A DNA stretch of 64,000 nt, taken from assembly GCA_018268465.1 (NCBI GenBank), contig JAFDWN010000033.1, positions 175,563-239,562 of the forward strand. The letters run 5' to 3'. The notes beneath the pieces were generated by a model, which worked only from the letters and a program-made list of their open reading frames with translations, was not told the origin of the DNA and searched no databases. The DNA comes from Actinomycetota bacterium (lineage in GTDB: Bacteria; Actinomycetota; Actinomycetes; Mycobacteriales; Mycobacteriaceae). The position numbers and the translations under genes are program-made. Within the stretch, counting starts at the first letter, position 1. Each line of letters opens with the position of its first letter. Of the stretch, positions 26,726-33,366 are shown piece after piece.

Positions 26726-27913
26726 ATGACAGCGTCGTCGAATTTCCTCATCATCGGCGGTGGTCTCGCCGGAGCGAAGGCAGCAGAAGCGTTGCGCGAC
26801 AACGACTTCGACGGTCATATTCTACTTTTCGGGGCTGAGGATCACCTCCCGTACGAGCGGCCTCCGCTGTCCAAGGAGTTCCTGGCGGGTAAGAAGACCC
26901 TGCCGGACTTCACCGTGCAGCCCGCCGCCTGGTACCGCGACCACCACGTCGAACTGCAACTCGGCACCACGGTGTCCGCGATCGATCCCGGCGCCCACAC
27001 GGTCACACTGCCCGACGGCGCCGCCCTGGCTTACGACAAACTGCTGCTGGCCACCGGGTCCGGTTCCCGCCGCCCGCCGATTCCCGGAGCCGACGCCGAC
27101 GGCGTGCACTACCTGAGAACCGTCGCCGACGCCGAGGCGCTCGACGCGAAACTGACCTCCGGGTCCACGCTGGCCGTCGTCGGCGCGGGCTGGATCGGGC
27201 TGGAGGTGGCCGCCAGCGCCCGGACGCGCGGCGTCAACGTCACCGTCGTCGAAGCCGCGGAACTGCCCCTGCTGGCTGCGTTGGGCCGGGAGGCTGCCGA
27301 AGTCTTCGCCGGCCTGCACCGCGAGCACGGTGTGGATCTGCGCCTGGGCTCCTCGGTGCAGGCGATCGACAGTGCCGGCCTCACCCTGGGCGACGGCTCC
27401 ACCGTCGCGGCGGACGCCGTGCTGGTTGCCGTCGGCGCGGCACCCAACATCGGCCTGGCCGAGGATGCCGGCCTGGCGACGGGCCAGGGCGGCGTACTGG
27501 TCGACTCGGCGCTGCGCAGCAGCGACCCCGACATTTTCGCGGTCGGGGATATCGCCGCCGCCCAACACCCGGTGCTCGGCGTGCGCATCCGCACCGAGCA
27601 CTGGGCCAATGCGCTCAACCAGCCCGCCGTCGCCGCCGCGGGCATGCTCGGCAAGACCGCTCACTACGACGCCCTGCCGTACTTCTTCACCGACCAGTAC
27701 GACCTCGGTATGGAGTACGTCGGGCACGCCGCCGGGTACGCGCGGGTGGTGTTCCGCGGCGACGTGCCCGGCCGGCAGTTCACCGCGTTCTGGCTCGACG
27801 GCGACGACCGCGTGCTGGCCGGGATGAACGTCAACGTCTGGGAAGGACTCGACGACATCAAGGCGCTGATCCGCTCCCGCGACAGCGTCGATCCGCAATC
27901 GCTGACCACCTGA
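26726..27913 (+). CDS. NAD(P)H:ferredoxin reductase, FAD-dependent (Rv1869c-like)
   Basis: 395-residue flavoprotein of the rhodocoxin/putidaredoxin-reductase class that passes electrons from NAD(P)H to a ferredoxin serving a P450 or oxygenase. Two dinucleotide folds are visible: FAD motif IIGGGLAGAKAAEAL at residue 8 and NAD motif VVGAGWIGLEVAASA near 152, plus the second FAD motif SSDPDIFAVGDIA. A C-terminal reductase domain follows. No ferredoxin or P450 gene is adjacent. It belongs to the backbone shared with M. tuberculosis and marks the left border of the accessory cassette that follows. Confidence 0.92.
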   Translation: MTASSNFLIIGGGLAGAKAAEALRDNDFDGHILLFGAEDHLPYERPPLSKEFLAGKKTLPDFTVQPAAWYRDHHVELQLGTTVSAIDPGAHTVTLPDGAALAYDKLLLATGSGSRRPPIPGADADGVHYLRTVADAEALDAKLTSGSTLAVVGAGWIGLEVAASARTRGVNVTVVEAAELPLLAALGREAAEVFAGLHREHGVDLRLGSSVQAIDSAGLTLGDGSTVAADAVLVAVGAAPNIGLAEDAGLATGQGGVLVDSALRSSDPDIFAVGDIAAAQHPVLGVRIRTEHWANALNQPAVAAAGMLGKTAHYDALPYFFTDQYDLGMEYVGHAAGYARVVFRGDVPGRQFTAFWLDGDDRVLAGMNVNVWEGLDDIKALIRSRDSVDPQSLTT

Positions 27914-27990: not shown

Positions 27991-29010
27991 ATGACGGCAA
28001 CGGCGTACCACACGCCGGTTCCGTGGGCCGAGATCCCCGCCGCCCAGGTCGTGCGGCTGGCCGGTGTCACCGCCGAAGAACTGGCCGTCGCGCTCGACCC
28101 GCCGCCCGACGGTGTGCCCGTGGGGATCTGGTACCGCCCGCCCGCTGTGGGTGCGGCCGCGATGATCGTCGAAGATGCGCTCGCATACTTGGAAAGCGTT
28201 GCGCGCCAGCTCTTTCCGGTGTGGTTGCCGCGCGCCGACCGGCTGGGCACCAGCGATCTGGACCGCCGGGCGGTGCGGGTGCTGGCGCGGGGGCGCGCGG
28301 CGGTCAGCGACCACTACGGCCCATTCCTGGCCGACCTCGCCGACGCCGCCCTCACCGGACGGGACGTCAGGGGCGGCCATTCTCCCGACGTGCGCGCGCA
28401 CGGCCTGTTCCGCGTCCTCGCCGACGCGTACCGCACCGGCCGCATCACCCTGCTCATCGCGGCCGCGGATACCGGTGACGAGGATTCGTGCGGGATCGCG
28501 CTGCGCTGGCTGGCCGCGTACGGCGGCTTCGGGGTCTGGCTGCTGGGTGACGTGCTCTGCTCGGTGGACCGCTTCCCCACCGTGACCCTGCCCCCCGCCC
28601 ATCCGGCCGGCGCCCCCACCGGCGCCGCCGGCCGTGTCGCATTCCCTCCGCTGGCCGGCCGTCCTCATCCCGCGAGTCCGGCCGAACAGGCGCTCGAACG
28701 GGCGCTCGCCCCCTGCGCGTGGGCGCGGGGGCGCAGCTGGAACCAGGTGCATCAGCCCCATCCGCTGGCGCGGCCGATCCGCGTCGACCTGATGTGGCCC
28801 GACGCCCGGTGCGTCGTCGAGGTCGACGGGCCCGATCACCGGGGCGCGGTGAAGTACGCCGACGACCGCCGCCGTGACAACTCCCTGGTGATGGCCGGAT
28901 TCACGGTGCTGCGATTCACCAACGAGGACATCGCCGACGACCTGTCCCGGGTGGTTGGCATGATCGAGGAGTTGGTGTCCGCCAAACGGCCTGAGGGGGA
29001 AAACGCGTGA
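27991..29010 (+). CDS. Protein with C-terminal DUF559/Vsr-like nuclease domain
   Basis: 339 residues. The last 80 form a PD-(D/E)XK-type nuclease fold: Asp266 (IRVDLMWPD), Glu277-Val-Asp279 (VVEVDGPDH), His283, then DDRRRDNSLVMAGFTVLRFT, as in DUF559 and very-short-patch-repair relatives. Residues 1-230 match nothing I recognise and are probably a partner- or target-binding region. Start ATG 27991 follows GGGGG. It overlaps the winged-helix gene by GTGA, beginning a chain of overlaps through the ATPase and lipoprotein. Probably the DNA-cleaving effector of the cassette. Confidence 0.8.
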   Translation: MTATAYHTPVPWAEIPAAQVVRLAGVTAEELAVALDPPPDGVPVGIWYRPPAVGAAAMIVEDALAYLESVARQLFPVWLPRADRLGTSDLDRRAVRVLARGRAAVSDHYGPFLADLADAALTGRDVRGGHSPDVRAHGLFRVLADAYRTGRITLLIAAADTGDEDSCGIALRWLAAYGGFGVWLLGDVLCSVDRFPTVTLPPAHPAGAPTGAAGRVAFPPLAGRPHPASPAEQALERALAPCAWARGRSWNQVHQPHPLARPIRVDLMWPDARCVVEVDGPDHRGAVKYADDRRRDNSLVMAGFTVLRFTNEDIADDLSRVVGMIEELVSAKRPEGENA

Positions 29011-29621
29011 GGGTGACGCCCGATGAACTGACCGGCACCGAGCAGGCGGTCCTGCTGGTCCTGATGGCGGAGTGCCGGCCGGTGCGTAACCCCGAGCTCA
29101 AAGAGCTGGGTCCCGAACTCAAGCTGGAGCACCGCAAACGGCTCAACGAGAAGGGCCTGGTGGAGTCGACCAGGGACGGCACGGCGTATGTCCACGAACT
29201 CACCGACGACGGCTGGCGGATGTGCCGCGCCATCATCGGCGCGGATACGCCGCCCAGATCCCAAGGGCAGGGGAAGGCGCTGTACACGCTGATGCGGGCG
29301 CTGGACCGGTATTTCGTGCGCGCGGACCTGCCGGTGTCGGAAGTGTTCCTGCCCGACGCCGCGGATCTCGAAAAGCGGGTGCGCGAGACCTATACCCGGC
29401 TGGCGAACCGGCCGGGAGGGTGGGTTCCGTTGCTGCGCCTTCGCACGGAACTGGGCGGACCCGACAAACAGGAACTCGACGCCGTGCTCCGGCGGATGTA
29501 CCGGGCGCCGGGCGTGCACCTCATACCGGAGGAGAACCAGAAGGTGTTGACGGTCGAGGACCGCGCCGCCGCCATCGAGATCGGCGACCAGGACAAGCAC
29601 CTGATTGCGATCGAGCTGTGA
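29007..29621 (+). CDS. Winged-helix protein of the nuclease-ATPase cassette
   Basis: 204 residues. The first 75 look like a winged helix-turn-helix (LTGTEQAVLLVLMAECRPVRNPELKE, LNEKGLVESTRDGTAYVHELTDDGW). The rest contains a second helical region and a possible second winged helix (PLLRLRTELGGPDKQELDAVLRRM), with an acidic ending. It may be a DNA-binding subunit rather than a transcription factor because it is translationally locked between nuclease and ATPase (4-bp and 1-bp overlaps). The start GTG 29007 is fixed by the overlap. Confidence 0.75.
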   Translation: MRVTPDELTGTEQAVLLVLMAECRPVRNPELKELGPELKLEHRKRLNEKGLVESTRDGTAYVHELTDDGWRMCRAIIGADTPPRSQGQGKALYTLMRALDRYFVRADLPVSEVFLPDAADLEKRVRETYTRLANRPGGWVPLLRLRTELGGPDKQELDAVLRRMYRAPGVHLIPEENQKVLTVEDRAAAIEIGDQDKHLIAIEL

Positions 29622-32600
29622 TGGACGCCCAGCAGCGCAAGGCGCTGGCCGAGTTACGTCTGACCTGGGCGCCGACACCCGACGACCTGTGGCGATCCCA
29701 GGGTGTGCTGCACGTCCCCGGCCTCAACGAGGGTCCGCTCGCGGAGGTGATGGCCGCATTCGACGACGCGGCGCGTGCCGATGCCAGTCCCCTCGGGGTG
29801 GTGCTGCAGGGTCCCGCCGGTTCCGGGAAGACCCACATGCTCGGCCAGGTGCGAGAACGCGTGCAAGCCGGCGGCGGCTTCTTCCTCAACGTGGAATTGC
29901 TTGACGCGACCAGCTTCTGGCAGTCCGCGCGGACCGGGATACTCGAGAGCCTGGGCCGGCCCGGTGCGGACCGCGAAACACAGCTCAAGGATCTGCTGTG
30001 GACGCTGGCGTCGATCGCGCATATCCCGCGTGCCGACCGGCGGGCGATCGTCGGCGACGACGAGTTGACACCCGAAACGCTCGACGCATTTGCCAACGCA
30101 CTCAACAAGAACCACCGCGAGACGATTCGGCAGTGCCGCCACACCCTGCGGGCACTGGTGCTGTCGGGTTCGGCCGACTACACCATGCAGGACATCGGCG
30201 ACGCGTTCCTGCAGGGCAACCACGACCCCGACCGTGAGCACGGGGACTGGGCTTTTCCCGCACCGCCGGCGACCGCGCAGGAGACGGTGCGCGACATCGC
30301 CCGCATCATCGCGATCGCGGGGCCTTCGGTGCTGGCCGTGGATCAGATCGACACGCTGCTCGCGCAGTCGACCGACAGGACGGACTCCGCCACCGAGCAG
30401 GCCGACAACCGCGACCTCGAACACGTCGCGCACGGCCTGATGTCCATTCGCCAGACGATGCGCAGGACGGTCGGGGTGGTCGCGTGCCTACCGGCGGCCT
30501 GGGAGAGCATCCGGGCCCGCGCCACCGCCACCGTCGGCGACCGGTTCCGGGTGACATTCCCGCTCAAAGGTCTGCCCAGCGCCGAACTCGGCAGGACCAT
30601 CCTCGAACGCAGGTTCGCCGTTCGGTACGCCAGCGTCGGTTTCACCCCTCCGTACCCGAGCTGGCCCATCCTGCCGTCGGCGTTCAGCGATGCGCCCGAC
30701 TACACCCCGCGCCAACTGCTCAAACGGGCCGACGACCACATCCGCGGGTGTCTGGCGGCGGGCGCGGTCGAAGAACTGACCTCACTGCACAAATCCGCAC
30801 GCCAGCAGGACCCGCGGGATGTGACGGATGTGGTCGTGGACGTGCCCGGCGACGCCCCCACCTCGCTGGACGTGCGGTTCGCCGAGTATCGCAGCCGTGC
30901 GGTGACCGGCGCCGCCCTCGACCCCGAGGGCGAGGACACCACGGTGCCCGAATTGTTGCGGGCCGCATTGCGGGCCTGGATCGTCGAACGCGACGGTGAC
31001 GGCGACGAGTTCCGCGTCGACGACAAACCCGGCGCGAAACCGGCACTGCATGCCAGGCTGCGACAGAGTCTCGACAGCTCCACCGACGACGAACAGCACT
31101 GGGCGTTCCGGGCGATCGCGCACACCAACTCGGTGGCGGTGCTCAACCGGCTGCGCAGCGCCTGTTCGGCGACGGGCATCACCGCTCAGGTGGATCGGCG
31201 CCGGCTGTACCTGCTGCGCAACGGGCCGTGGCCCGGGGGCAAGAAAACCGCCGAGGCGCTTGCCGAGTTCGAAGCGGCCGGCGGGCGCACCCTGCCGATG
31301 TCCGACGACGACCTCAAGACGATGATCGCGCTGCGCGACCTCATCGACGACGATCCCGCCGACCTGCCGGGGTGGCTCGCGGCCCGCAAGCCCGCACACG
31401 GCATCGCGCTCATCCGGGCGGCGCTCGGCGACAAGGCCGGCGAATTGCCGCCACCGGTCCCGGAACCGGCGTCCGGCGCCCAAGCGCCGGATGTCACACC
31501 GCCGGACCAGCCGTCCGACTCGCCCGCCGAACCCCTGTCCCCCTTCGCGATTCCACTCGGCGCCGACGACTCCGCCGGTGTCCAGCGCAGCGTCCAGCTG
31601 CTCGCGCTGCGCAAGCACGCGGCGGTTTTCGCCGGATCCGGGTCCGGCAAGACGGTCCTGCTGCGGCGGATCATCGAGGAGTGCGCGCTGCGGGGCGTGT
31701 CGTCCATCGTGCTCGACCCCAATAACGATCTCTCGCGGCTGGGAAGCGCGTGGCCGGAGCGGCCCGCGGGGTGGGCACCGGCCGACGACGACCGTGCCGC
31801 CGACTACCTCACCCACACCGAAGTGGTGGTGTGGACCCCGAACCGGTTGGGCGGGCGTCCCCTGTCCTTCCAGCCACTGCCGGATTTCGCGTCGGTGGCC
31901 GACGATCCCGACGAATTCAACGAGGCGGTCGAATCGGCCGTCGCGGCACTGGAGCCCCGGGCGCTCATCAGCGGCAGCCGCGCCAAGGTGGCCCACGCCC
32001 GGGCGGTGCTCAAAGAGGCATTGCAGTGGTTCGGACAGCAGTCCTCGGCATCCCTGGAGGATTTCATCGCCGTCCTGGCCGATCTGCCCGACGAAGCCGG
32101 AACGCTGCGCGGCGCCAGGGAGCGGGCTGCCGAACTCGCCATGAACCTGCGCGCGGAGATGATCAACGACAACACGTTCGGTGGTGTCGGTGCCTCCGCC
32201 GACCCCGGTGTGCTGCTGACACCGTCGGAGGGCTACCGGGCCCGGGTCTCGGTCATCAGCATGATCGGGTTGATCAACGAACGGCAGCGCGAAGGGTTCG
32301 TCAACCAGTTGCAGATGGCGCTGTTCTCCTGGATCAAACGCAACCCGGCGGGCGACCGACCGCTGGGTGGTCTACTCGTCATGGACGAGGCGCAGAACTT
32401 CGCGCCGTCGGGCCGGTCGACGATCAGTCTGCGCAGCACGCTCGCACTGTCGTCGCAGGCCCGCAAGTACGGACTGGGCCTGTTGTACGCCACCCAGGCC
32501 CCCAAAGGGCTGCACAACCACATCCCGGGCAATGCGGCGTCGCAGTTCTTCGGGTTCCTCAACTCCTCGACCCAGATCGCCGTGGCCAACGAGCTGGCCC

Positions 32601-32782
32601 GGGTCAAGGGCGGGGAGGTACCCGACATCAGCCGACTGCGTGCGGGCAACTTCTATGTGGCGCTGGAGGGCGAAGCGTTCCACAAGGTCAGGTCGCCGTG
32701 GTGCCTGTCGCATCATCCGTCCAGTCCGCCCACCACCGAGCAGGTACTCGACCTGGCGCGGCGGCCGCTCGGTCCGCGGTGA
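29621..32782 (+). CDS. Dual-ATPase protein: AAA domain plus HerA/FtsK-type motor
   Basis: 1053 residues with two P-loop modules. Module 1 (about 25-330): Walker A GPAGSGKT (64-71) and Walker B LAVDQID (Asp241), an ORC/STAND-like AAA fold. Then a helical and winged-helix linker to about 615. Module 2 (about 640-1040): Walker A GSGSGKT (672-678), Walker B LLVMDEAQN (Asp922-Glu923) and a sensor segment SSQARKYGLGLLYATQAPKGL, typical of HerA/DUF87 DNA translocases. ATG 29621 shares one base with the previous stop (TGATG). With the nuclease gene it forms a HerA-nuclease pairing known from DNA repair and phage defence. Confidence 0.85.
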   Translation: MDAQQRKALAELRLTWAPTPDDLWRSQGVLHVPGLNEGPLAEVMAAFDDAARADASPLGVVLQGPAGSGKTHMLGQVRERVQAGGGFFLNVELLDATSFWQSARTGILESLGRPGADRETQLKDLLWTLASIAHIPRADRRAIVGDDELTPETLDAFANALNKNHRETIRQCRHTLRALVLSGSADYTMQDIGDAFLQGNHDPDREHGDWAFPAPPATAQETVRDIARIIAIAGPSVLAVDQIDTLLAQSTDRTDSATEQADNRDLEHVAHGLMSIRQTMRRTVGVVACLPAAWESIRARATATVGDRFRVTFPLKGLPSAELGRTILERRFAVRYASVGFTPPYPSWPILPSAFSDAPDYTPRQLLKRADDHIRGCLAAGAVEELTSLHKSARQQDPRDVTDVVVDVPGDAPTSLDVRFAEYRSRAVTGAALDPEGEDTTVPELLRAALRAWIVERDGDGDEFRVDDKPGAKPALHARLRQSLDSSTDDEQHWAFRAIAHTNSVAVLNRLRSACSATGITAQVDRRRLYLLRNGPWPGGKKTAEALAEFEAAGGRTLPMSDDDLKTMIALRDLIDDDPADLPGWLAARKPAHGIALIRAALGDKAGELPPPVPEPASGAQAPDVTPPDQPSDSPAEPLSPFAIPLGADDSAGVQRSVQLLALRKHAAVFAGSGSGKTVLLRRIIEECALRGVSSIVLDPNNDLSRLGSAWPERPAGWAPADDDRAADYLTHTEVVVWTPNRLGGRPLSFQPLPDFASVADDPDEFNEAVESAVAALEPRALISGSRAKVAHARAVLKEALQWFGQQSSASLEDFIAVLADLPDEAGTLRGARERAAELAMNLRAEMINDNTFGGVGASADPGVLLTPSEGYRARVSVISMIGLINERQREGFVNQLQMALFSWIKRNPAGDRPLGGLLVMDEAQNFAPSGRSTISLRSTLALSSQARKYGLGLLYATQAPKGLHNHIPGNAASQFFGFLNSSTQIAVANELARVKGGEVPDISRLRAGNFYVALEGEAFHKVRSPWCLSHHPSSPPTTEQVLDLARRPLGPR

Positions 32783-33366
32783 GGCGGGTCGCGCCGGCGA
32801 TCCTCGCGGCGGTGCTGGCGACGGGCTGCGGCGGTCCCGCCGTCGTCAACACCGGCGAGCCGCCGGCGACGTCGCGGTCTGCCGAACCGCCCGCCGCCCC
32901 TGCACCGGTCAACGACCTGCGGATGGTCAGCGCGTTCGACTACGTCGCACACGTCGACGGGACGGCCGGCTACTACTTCACGACGCCCAGCGGGAAATGG
33001 GCGTGCGCAATCCTCCCGCGGGAGAAGGCCGGATGCCAGTCGGCGAGCGGATGGCCGTCAGCGATGGGGCTCCCCGGCGAACCCGACTCCGCGGCCGGCG
33101 CCGCCGGGGATACGGGCGTGCCGAACGCGATCGTCATCGAGCGCGAGGGCGACGGACACTTCGCGGCGCTGGAAGCCCCCGAGTTCGCCGTCGATCCGGG
33201 GCCCGCGAAGGCGCTGCAGTTCGACGAGATCCTCGTCGTCGCGGGCTTCCGCTGCAATGTGCAGGAGGCCGGGGTGTCGTGTATGAGCGAGCAGAGCGGA
33301 CAGGGGTTCACGTTCTCGTCGGAGGGGTTCCAGATGCGATACACCGACCTGCCCCCGGCGCCGTGA
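32779..33366 (+). CDS. Probable lipoprotein coupled to the ATPase gene
   Basis: 195 residues. An N-terminal hydrophobic stretch ends LATGCGG, a lipobox-like site giving a lipid-anchored cysteine at about residue 17, followed by a Pro/Ala-rich linker. The globular part has four cysteines (WACAIL, KAGCQ, FRCN, VSCMS) that may form two disulfides. GTG 32779 overlaps the ATPase stop by GTGA. A surface protein translationally coupled to a DNA motor is odd: it may be a membrane part of the system or simply the next gene in a compact operon. Family unknown. Confidence 0.75.
   Translation: MRRVAPAILAAVLATGCGGPAVVNTGEPPATSRSAEPPAAPAPVNDLRMVSAFDYVAHVDGTAGYYFTTPSGKWACAILPREKAGCQSASGWPSAMGLPGEPDSAAGAAGDTGVPNAIVIEREGDGHFAALEAPEFAVDPGPAKALQFDEILVVAGFRCNVQEAGVSCMSEQSGQGFTFSSEGFQMRYTDLPPAP

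Follow-up and report, generated by a model that had tools for sequence, protein, structure and literature searches.

A three-gene cassette with a DUF559/Vsr-type nuclease and an ORC/STAND-like plus HerA-type dual ATPase as a proposed anti-invader DNA system with exchangeable effectors

Gene neighbourhoods that code for an ORC/Cdc6 ATPase, an inserted inactive restriction endonuclease (REase), an active REase, a HerA/FtsK motor and a winged helix-turn-helix (wHTH) domain, spread over one or several proteins, have been proposed to intercept invader DNA as "HerA/FtsK capture systems" (Rakesh, Aravind, Krishnan 2024; PMC10853773). The concept rests on comparative genomics, and according to the available part of that paper the active REase comes from two families, one of them AbiJ-like, and the inactive REase lies between the AAA core and the wHTH (PMC10853773). 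ATPase-dead STAND-like domains joined to an effector are known from BREX, where such iSTAND-effector fusions are represented by PglW and type-4 PglZ in the accessible portion of PMC12839542. Here, we report on a window of 64,000 nt from contig JAFDWN010000033.1, meaning the whole stretch of DNA that was analyzed, in which three adjoining genes, called A, B and C, encode a putative nuclease, a small protein and a dual ATPase. With moderate confidence, we propose that the three genes form a machine that restricts invading DNA, belongs to the ORC/Cdc6 plus HerA/FtsK capture kind and uses exchangeable effectors. This reading draws support from the linkage of the genes, the intact ATPase motifs of C, the fold and invariant active-site residues of the nuclease in A, and the loss or exchange of A.

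The scan of GTDB genomes yielded 115 relatives of C, and 80 loci were kept. They come from mycobacteria, Rhodococcus, Williamsia, Gordonia, Actinoplanes, Herbidospora, Kribbella, Streptomyces, a Myxococcales metagenome-assembled genome (MAG), Xanthobacter and others. B was matched in every one of the 80 loci with C, and A in 41 of them, including fragments in L014 and L036. When L081 and L069 are excluded from the counting, the called A and B overlap by 4 bases in 27 of 39 loci, and B and C by 1 or 4 bases in 69 of 79. The complete set of A, B and C is found in Xanthobacter, in the Myxococcales MAG and on a Methylobacterium megaplasmid. The recurrence of this gene order with frequent short overlaps indicates that the arrangement is more than chance. 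In the window itself, the initial annotation had noted four reading frames with overlapping ends, which is correct (GTGA at 29007-29010, TGATG at 29619-29623, GTGA at 32779-32782); its four-gene cassette has to be reduced to A-B-C, the three genes that recur in order, because the fourth gene, D, is a resident neighbour. A record of M. houstonense (L069:9420-13499) contains repeated and interrupted segments of B, C and the gene of the flavin adenine dinucleotide (FAD)-dependent oxidoreductase that flanks the cassette in the window, which suggests duplication and breakage of the locus.

The four window proteins A-D were scanned with Pfam and PADLOC. The C-terminal part of A matches DUF559 (PF04480; E 1.3e-11, residues 265-327) and also REase_MTES_1575, and a Vsr-like nuclease fold is predicted for residues 227-334 (AlphaFold and VIA-align), whereas the initial annotation would have been contradicted by an AlphaFold model lacking such a fold. 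The four residues named there for a PD-(D/E)XK-type nuclease, Asp266, Glu277, Asp279 and His283, are invariant in 23 aligned sequences. By family profile, modelled fold and active-site residues, A is hence assigned to the DUF559/Vsr-like nucleases. The preceding region (residues ~7-205) is predicted to form a domain similar to P-loop ATPase domains, most of all those of STAND/ORC type, but itself without a P-loop. Foldseek gave no match for A at E <= 0.001.

C consists of an AAA module (~37-380), an alpha/beta middle domain (~415-606), a linker of low model confidence and a motor (~640-1047) that carries a helical insert (~756-865). Pfam assigned AAA_22 (E 2.4e-9, exceeding the curated threshold) and DUF87/HerA (E 3.2e-10). 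The P-loops that begin at residues 64 and 671, the DQxD of the AAA module and the DEAQ were each present in 36 of 36 aligned sequences, in line with the earlier claim of two complete P-loop modules, the second with a HerA/FtsK Walker B. Judged by its sequence, the AAA module is clear beyond doubt; the orc1/cdc6 model reached an E-value of only 0.2. The fold matches obtained for C were filled by the motor, which is nearest to HerA and DndH, and the AAA and middle parts did not appear among them. In the middle domain the order of elements is helix-strand-strand-strand-helix-strand, a conserved (D/E)xK is missing, and no profile match was significant, the best one to a restriction enzyme having an E-value of 0.4. 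Comparison of the parts of A, B and C with hhalign revealed no kinship except between the P-loop stretches of the two ATPase modules of C. Family, structure and synteny searches together back the combination seen at the outset, namely a nuclease beside a protein that unites a HerA-type motor with an ORC/STAND-like ATPase.

The assignment of B is less firm. No Pfam family was matched by the window copies of B and D. The winged helix suggested for B has weak support from a profile match to AspA (4rs8, E 9.8e-4), which is no better than the matches to calmodulins (best E 5.4e-4), and from weak winged-helix-type Pfam matches in a few of 26 B members. The calmodulin matches and a match of two members to CATRA-C (best E 0.0025) were both taken as chance. 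From its sequence, B is a possible winged-helix DNA-binding or adaptor protein.

Table 1. Genes of the A-B-C cassette and its resident flanks in the window.
Feature	Position	Strand	Description
Gene A	27991..29010	+	339 aa; P-loop-less N-terminal domain and predicted C-terminal DUF559/Vsr-type nuclease
Gene B	29007..29621	+	204 aa; possibly a winged-helix protein for DNA binding or as adaptor
Gene C	29621..32782	+	1053 aa; ORC/STAND-like AAA module, middle domain and HerA/FtsK-type motor
Gene D	32779..33366	+	195 aa, secreted/lipoprotein-like; resident right flank, outside the cassette
FAD-dependent oxidoreductase	26726..27913	+	resident left flank; beside D in empty sites

The extent of the cassette follows from its flanks. 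D was matched in 131 of the 297 genomes of the genus. Among the 29 best-matching D loci from other genomes (L094-L122), 12 have D directly 3' of the FAD gene, at a distance of 3-36 bases when the start of D is projected from the alignment, and none of these 12 genomes belongs to the 74 of the genus that carry C. Since both genes directly adjoin in genomes without C, A-B-C in the window occupies the FAD-D gap of a known empty arrangement. No match to D was found behind C in the 80 loci (tblastn, E <= 1e-20; some loci end within the flanks); where D is present in them, it stands before B-C. The FAD gene precedes A-less B-C in many mycobacterial loci. D was therefore rejected as fourth component, given its occurrence in 131/297 genomes and its position behind the FAD gene where C is missing. 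Its label as lipoprotein is soft, because a strict lipobox pattern was searched and not found. Upstream of D, two small related proteins around a protein of ~290 aa recur in several mycobacteria with B-C only (L001:5233-6608 and like loci).

The most variable element of the cassette is A. In the genus it was found in 16 of the 297 genomes (E <= 1e-20), each time directly before B-C, one copy being fragmentary (94 positions) and another containing a stop codon, and it was not found in 58 of the 74 genomes with C. A midpoint-rooted tree of 78 C proteins, including the window and leaving out L045, L050, L069 and L081, has A in 40 rows, no recognised partner in 31 and other genes in 7. The latter comprise a PDC-M02A/B pair in the place of A in three rows (L052, L068 and L079; PADLOC E 2.7e-60 and 1.1e-71 in L052), a P-loop/TPR-like gene at the same place in two (L061 and L063), and an AIPR/AbiU-type gene 3' of C in another two (L065, PADLOC AbiU E 1.5e-109; L066, assigned by cluster). 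A further partner candidate is an 867-aa gene 3' of an A-less B-C (L076:7388-9991); its TPR matches are weak, and PADLOC gave it none at E <= 0.1. A is found on long deep rows (Xanthobacter and Myxococcales) as well as on many actinobacterial branches, which makes its loss in mycobacteria the simplest reading of the sequences, with the deep order unsure owing to the midpoint root and long branches. A-like fragments precede B in 4 of 38 loci without a called A; they are clear in L014 (57 residues) and L013 (48 residues), and short and weak in L026 (17 residues) and L023 (14 residues, E 0.01). In pairs of loci with B-C only, B and C stay constrained, and for C the ratio of nonsynonymous to synonymous substitution rates was 0.046-0.194 in six pairs.

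C itself is distributed patchily, being found in 74/297 genomes of the genus (two of them fragmentary), 84/301 of the family and 6/396 of the phylum. Presence of the set in nearly all mycobacteria, which would have spoken for housekeeping, is thus not observed, neither for C nor for A with its 16/297 genomes. Twenty of the 80 loci (L038, L040-L046, L048, L051, L055-L059, L062, L067, L070, L071 and L077) have, no more than 4.5 kb from the cassette, genes that we take, from their sequences, to encode ribosomal proteins; in 12 these stand on both sides. The annotated Tsukamurella record (L123) has the cassette between rplN and rpsQ. Gaps in the S10-spc cluster appear as a recurrent insertion site of the cassette in Rhodococcus-type bacteria, and L056 and L058 use a gap other than rplN-rpsQ. 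At L126:610-9579, a resident locus with a shorter-called B, an intact C and no A is immediately preceded by a divergent A-B-C. The layout would fit partial displacement of an old cassette by an incoming one. A further cassette elsewhere occurs in this genome and in one other. The near-fixed site and the divergent second cassette located there show that the ribosomal site is old and its contents turn over.

A phage-borne system was rejected as unsupported, since there was no match in phage records and none of 111 pattern matches in viral contigs was a relative. One of three plasmid matches is convincing, the one on the Methylobacterium megaplasmid; the PLSDB entries NZ_LR134464.1 (L123, with ribosomal operon genes) and NZ_LT559118.1 (L125, 11.85 Mb) are probably chromosomal. 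Genes for a transposase or integrase are absent from the cassette, and its ends show only weak repeats in GC-rich DNA.

The function of a candidate defence or DNA-processing system, as initially suggested, holds as the best reading of an inferred role, and several lines lead from there to restriction of invader DNA. These are the constant company of B and C, the occurrence of A only beside B-C in the genus, the exchange of partners, the patchiness and the several sites, furthermore the empty site, the second cassette beside an A-less resident C, and a motor nearest to HerA and DndH. The presence of A-B-C in distant taxa and the published concepts of a like domain set and of dead-STAND-effector fusions point in the same direction. 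According to the proposed scheme, C would assemble as a ring, its HerA-type module would translocate DNA and its ORC/STAND-like module would load on or sense foreign or aberrant DNA, with B possibly helping as DNA-binding adaptor. The N-terminus of A, which lacks a P-loop, may dock on the AAA module of C and keep the Vsr-type nuclease silent, until pumping of DNA would release it to nick or cut the pumped molecule. B-C would represent a constant sensor-motor core and the nuclease an exchangeable effector. It is conceivable, albeit doubtful, that a distinct capture class exists, in which a constant wHTH and ORC-HerA sensor-motor takes interchangeable effector cartridges, most commonly a Vsr-type nuclease tethered by a dead STAND domain that joins the live AAA ring during assembly. 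In such a class, the motor would be kept by selection after loss of the nuclease and would still protect by itself, for instance by stripping or trapping invader DNA or by pumping it at the cost of ATP.

However, the distribution in two related genera speaks against a purely accessory defence function. C was found in 36 of 37 genomes of one of them, with A likewise in 36/37, and in 15 of 16 genomes of the other, with A in 11/16, and this near-universal presence weakens such a reading. It would better fit the main rival, a role in chromosome maintenance, with B-C as a HerA-NurA-like motor for end or fork processing and A as an optional NurA-like repair nuclease. Such a role is nevertheless unlikely, because 223/297 genomes of the genus and 390/396 of the phylum have no match to C, the nuclease fold of A matches the Vsr type, and multiple sites, partner exchange, second cassettes and site turnover count against it. 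Effector exchange, the patchiness elsewhere and the turnover at the site rather favour anti-invader work. The near-fixation also argues against machinery of a mobile element that serves transfer, segregation or integration instead of immunity, for instance as TnsA/TnsC-like nuclease plus AAA or in partition. This explanation appears quite improbable in view of the lacking transposase or integrase, the weak end repeats, the phage records and viral contigs without match and the single convincing plasmid match among three. The many genomes of the genus with C and without A (58/74) could finally hint at three operonic neighbours that share no joint function, a coincidence that is hardly credible for B and C, which occur together in 80/80 loci with frequent 1- or 4-base overlaps, or for A-B-C sets in Actinomycetota, Pseudomonadota and Myxococcota. 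If the restriction reading is true, the cassette makes the HerA/FtsK capture systems testable on a concrete member, and it lets one follow, as a natural experiment, how nucleases are recruited, exchanged and discarded by an immune core that pumps DNA. It also raises the puzzles of a near-fixed place in the ribosomal operon of Rhodococcus-type bacteria and of the nuclease-free survival in mycobacteria.

Several known systems share single features with A-B-C. The motor fold of C is near DndH and some C relatives weakly match DndH or DndF (E 0.0069 to 0.099), but AAA and HerA are joined in one chain in C, and at E <= 10 neither DndF nor DndG matched any of the four window proteins, which does not place the cassette in DndFGH. 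It differs from SIR2-HerA and DUF4297-HerA by the DUF559/Vsr-type effector, the fusion of the motor to an ORC/STAND-like AAA and the presence of B in all loci examined, and A matches neither SIR2 nor DUF4297. MADS is a multi-gene set with methyltransferase and kinase. Its Mad8 is the best match of C in the defence library (PADLOC mad8, E 5.7e-18, residues 642-974), but this match spans the motor only, and the PADLOC scan of the four window proteins detected no other Mad protein that would indicate MADS. The PADLOC candidate pair PDC-M02A/B shares with A the position upstream of B-C in the three loci where it replaces A, whereas the scanned copies of B and C gave no match to any PDC model; our literature search retrieved no paper under the name PDC-M02. 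Residues 263-318 of A weakly match the beginning of DpdF in PADLOC (E 6.4e-6), but they cover ~56 of the 1078 model positions, and no other Dpd match at that level was found in the window proteins. A resembles the BREX iSTAND fusions, as far as the consulted part of their description goes, in joining a P-loop-less STAND-like domain to an effector; PglZ, BrxC and BrxX are without match in the window proteins.

The closest resemblance is to the HerA/FtsK capture systems, as outlined in the available part of PMC10853773. An ORC-like AAA, a HerA/FtsK motor and a REase-fold nuclease are coded together in both, with domains split or fused in various ways, and the helical insert of a HerA subset has its counterpart in the motor of C. 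The motor of C also agrees with what defines these systems. They differ in the nuclease, which is of DUF559/Vsr type in A and sits on a P-loop-less STAND-like domain, and the "invariable" inserted inactive REase could not be shown in C. Compared with the capture plan, A-B-C thus matches in the motor and is compatible in AAA, nuclease and wHTH, with the inactive REase unproven. The claim of an undescribed system accordingly holds in part, since a like domain set was proposed in PMC10853773; the DUF559/Vsr-type nuclease of A is unusual. Our literature search, from which preprints and subscription papers largely fell out, found no paper that pairs DUF559 with DUF87 and, among the papers listed, none on the exact A-B-C set, and the lineage may already be contained in the supplement of PMC10853773. 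On the evidence of its sequences, A-B-C may be regarded, rather than as a proven member, as a variant that would work like an ORC/Cdc6-coupled capture system, the closest kind described so far.
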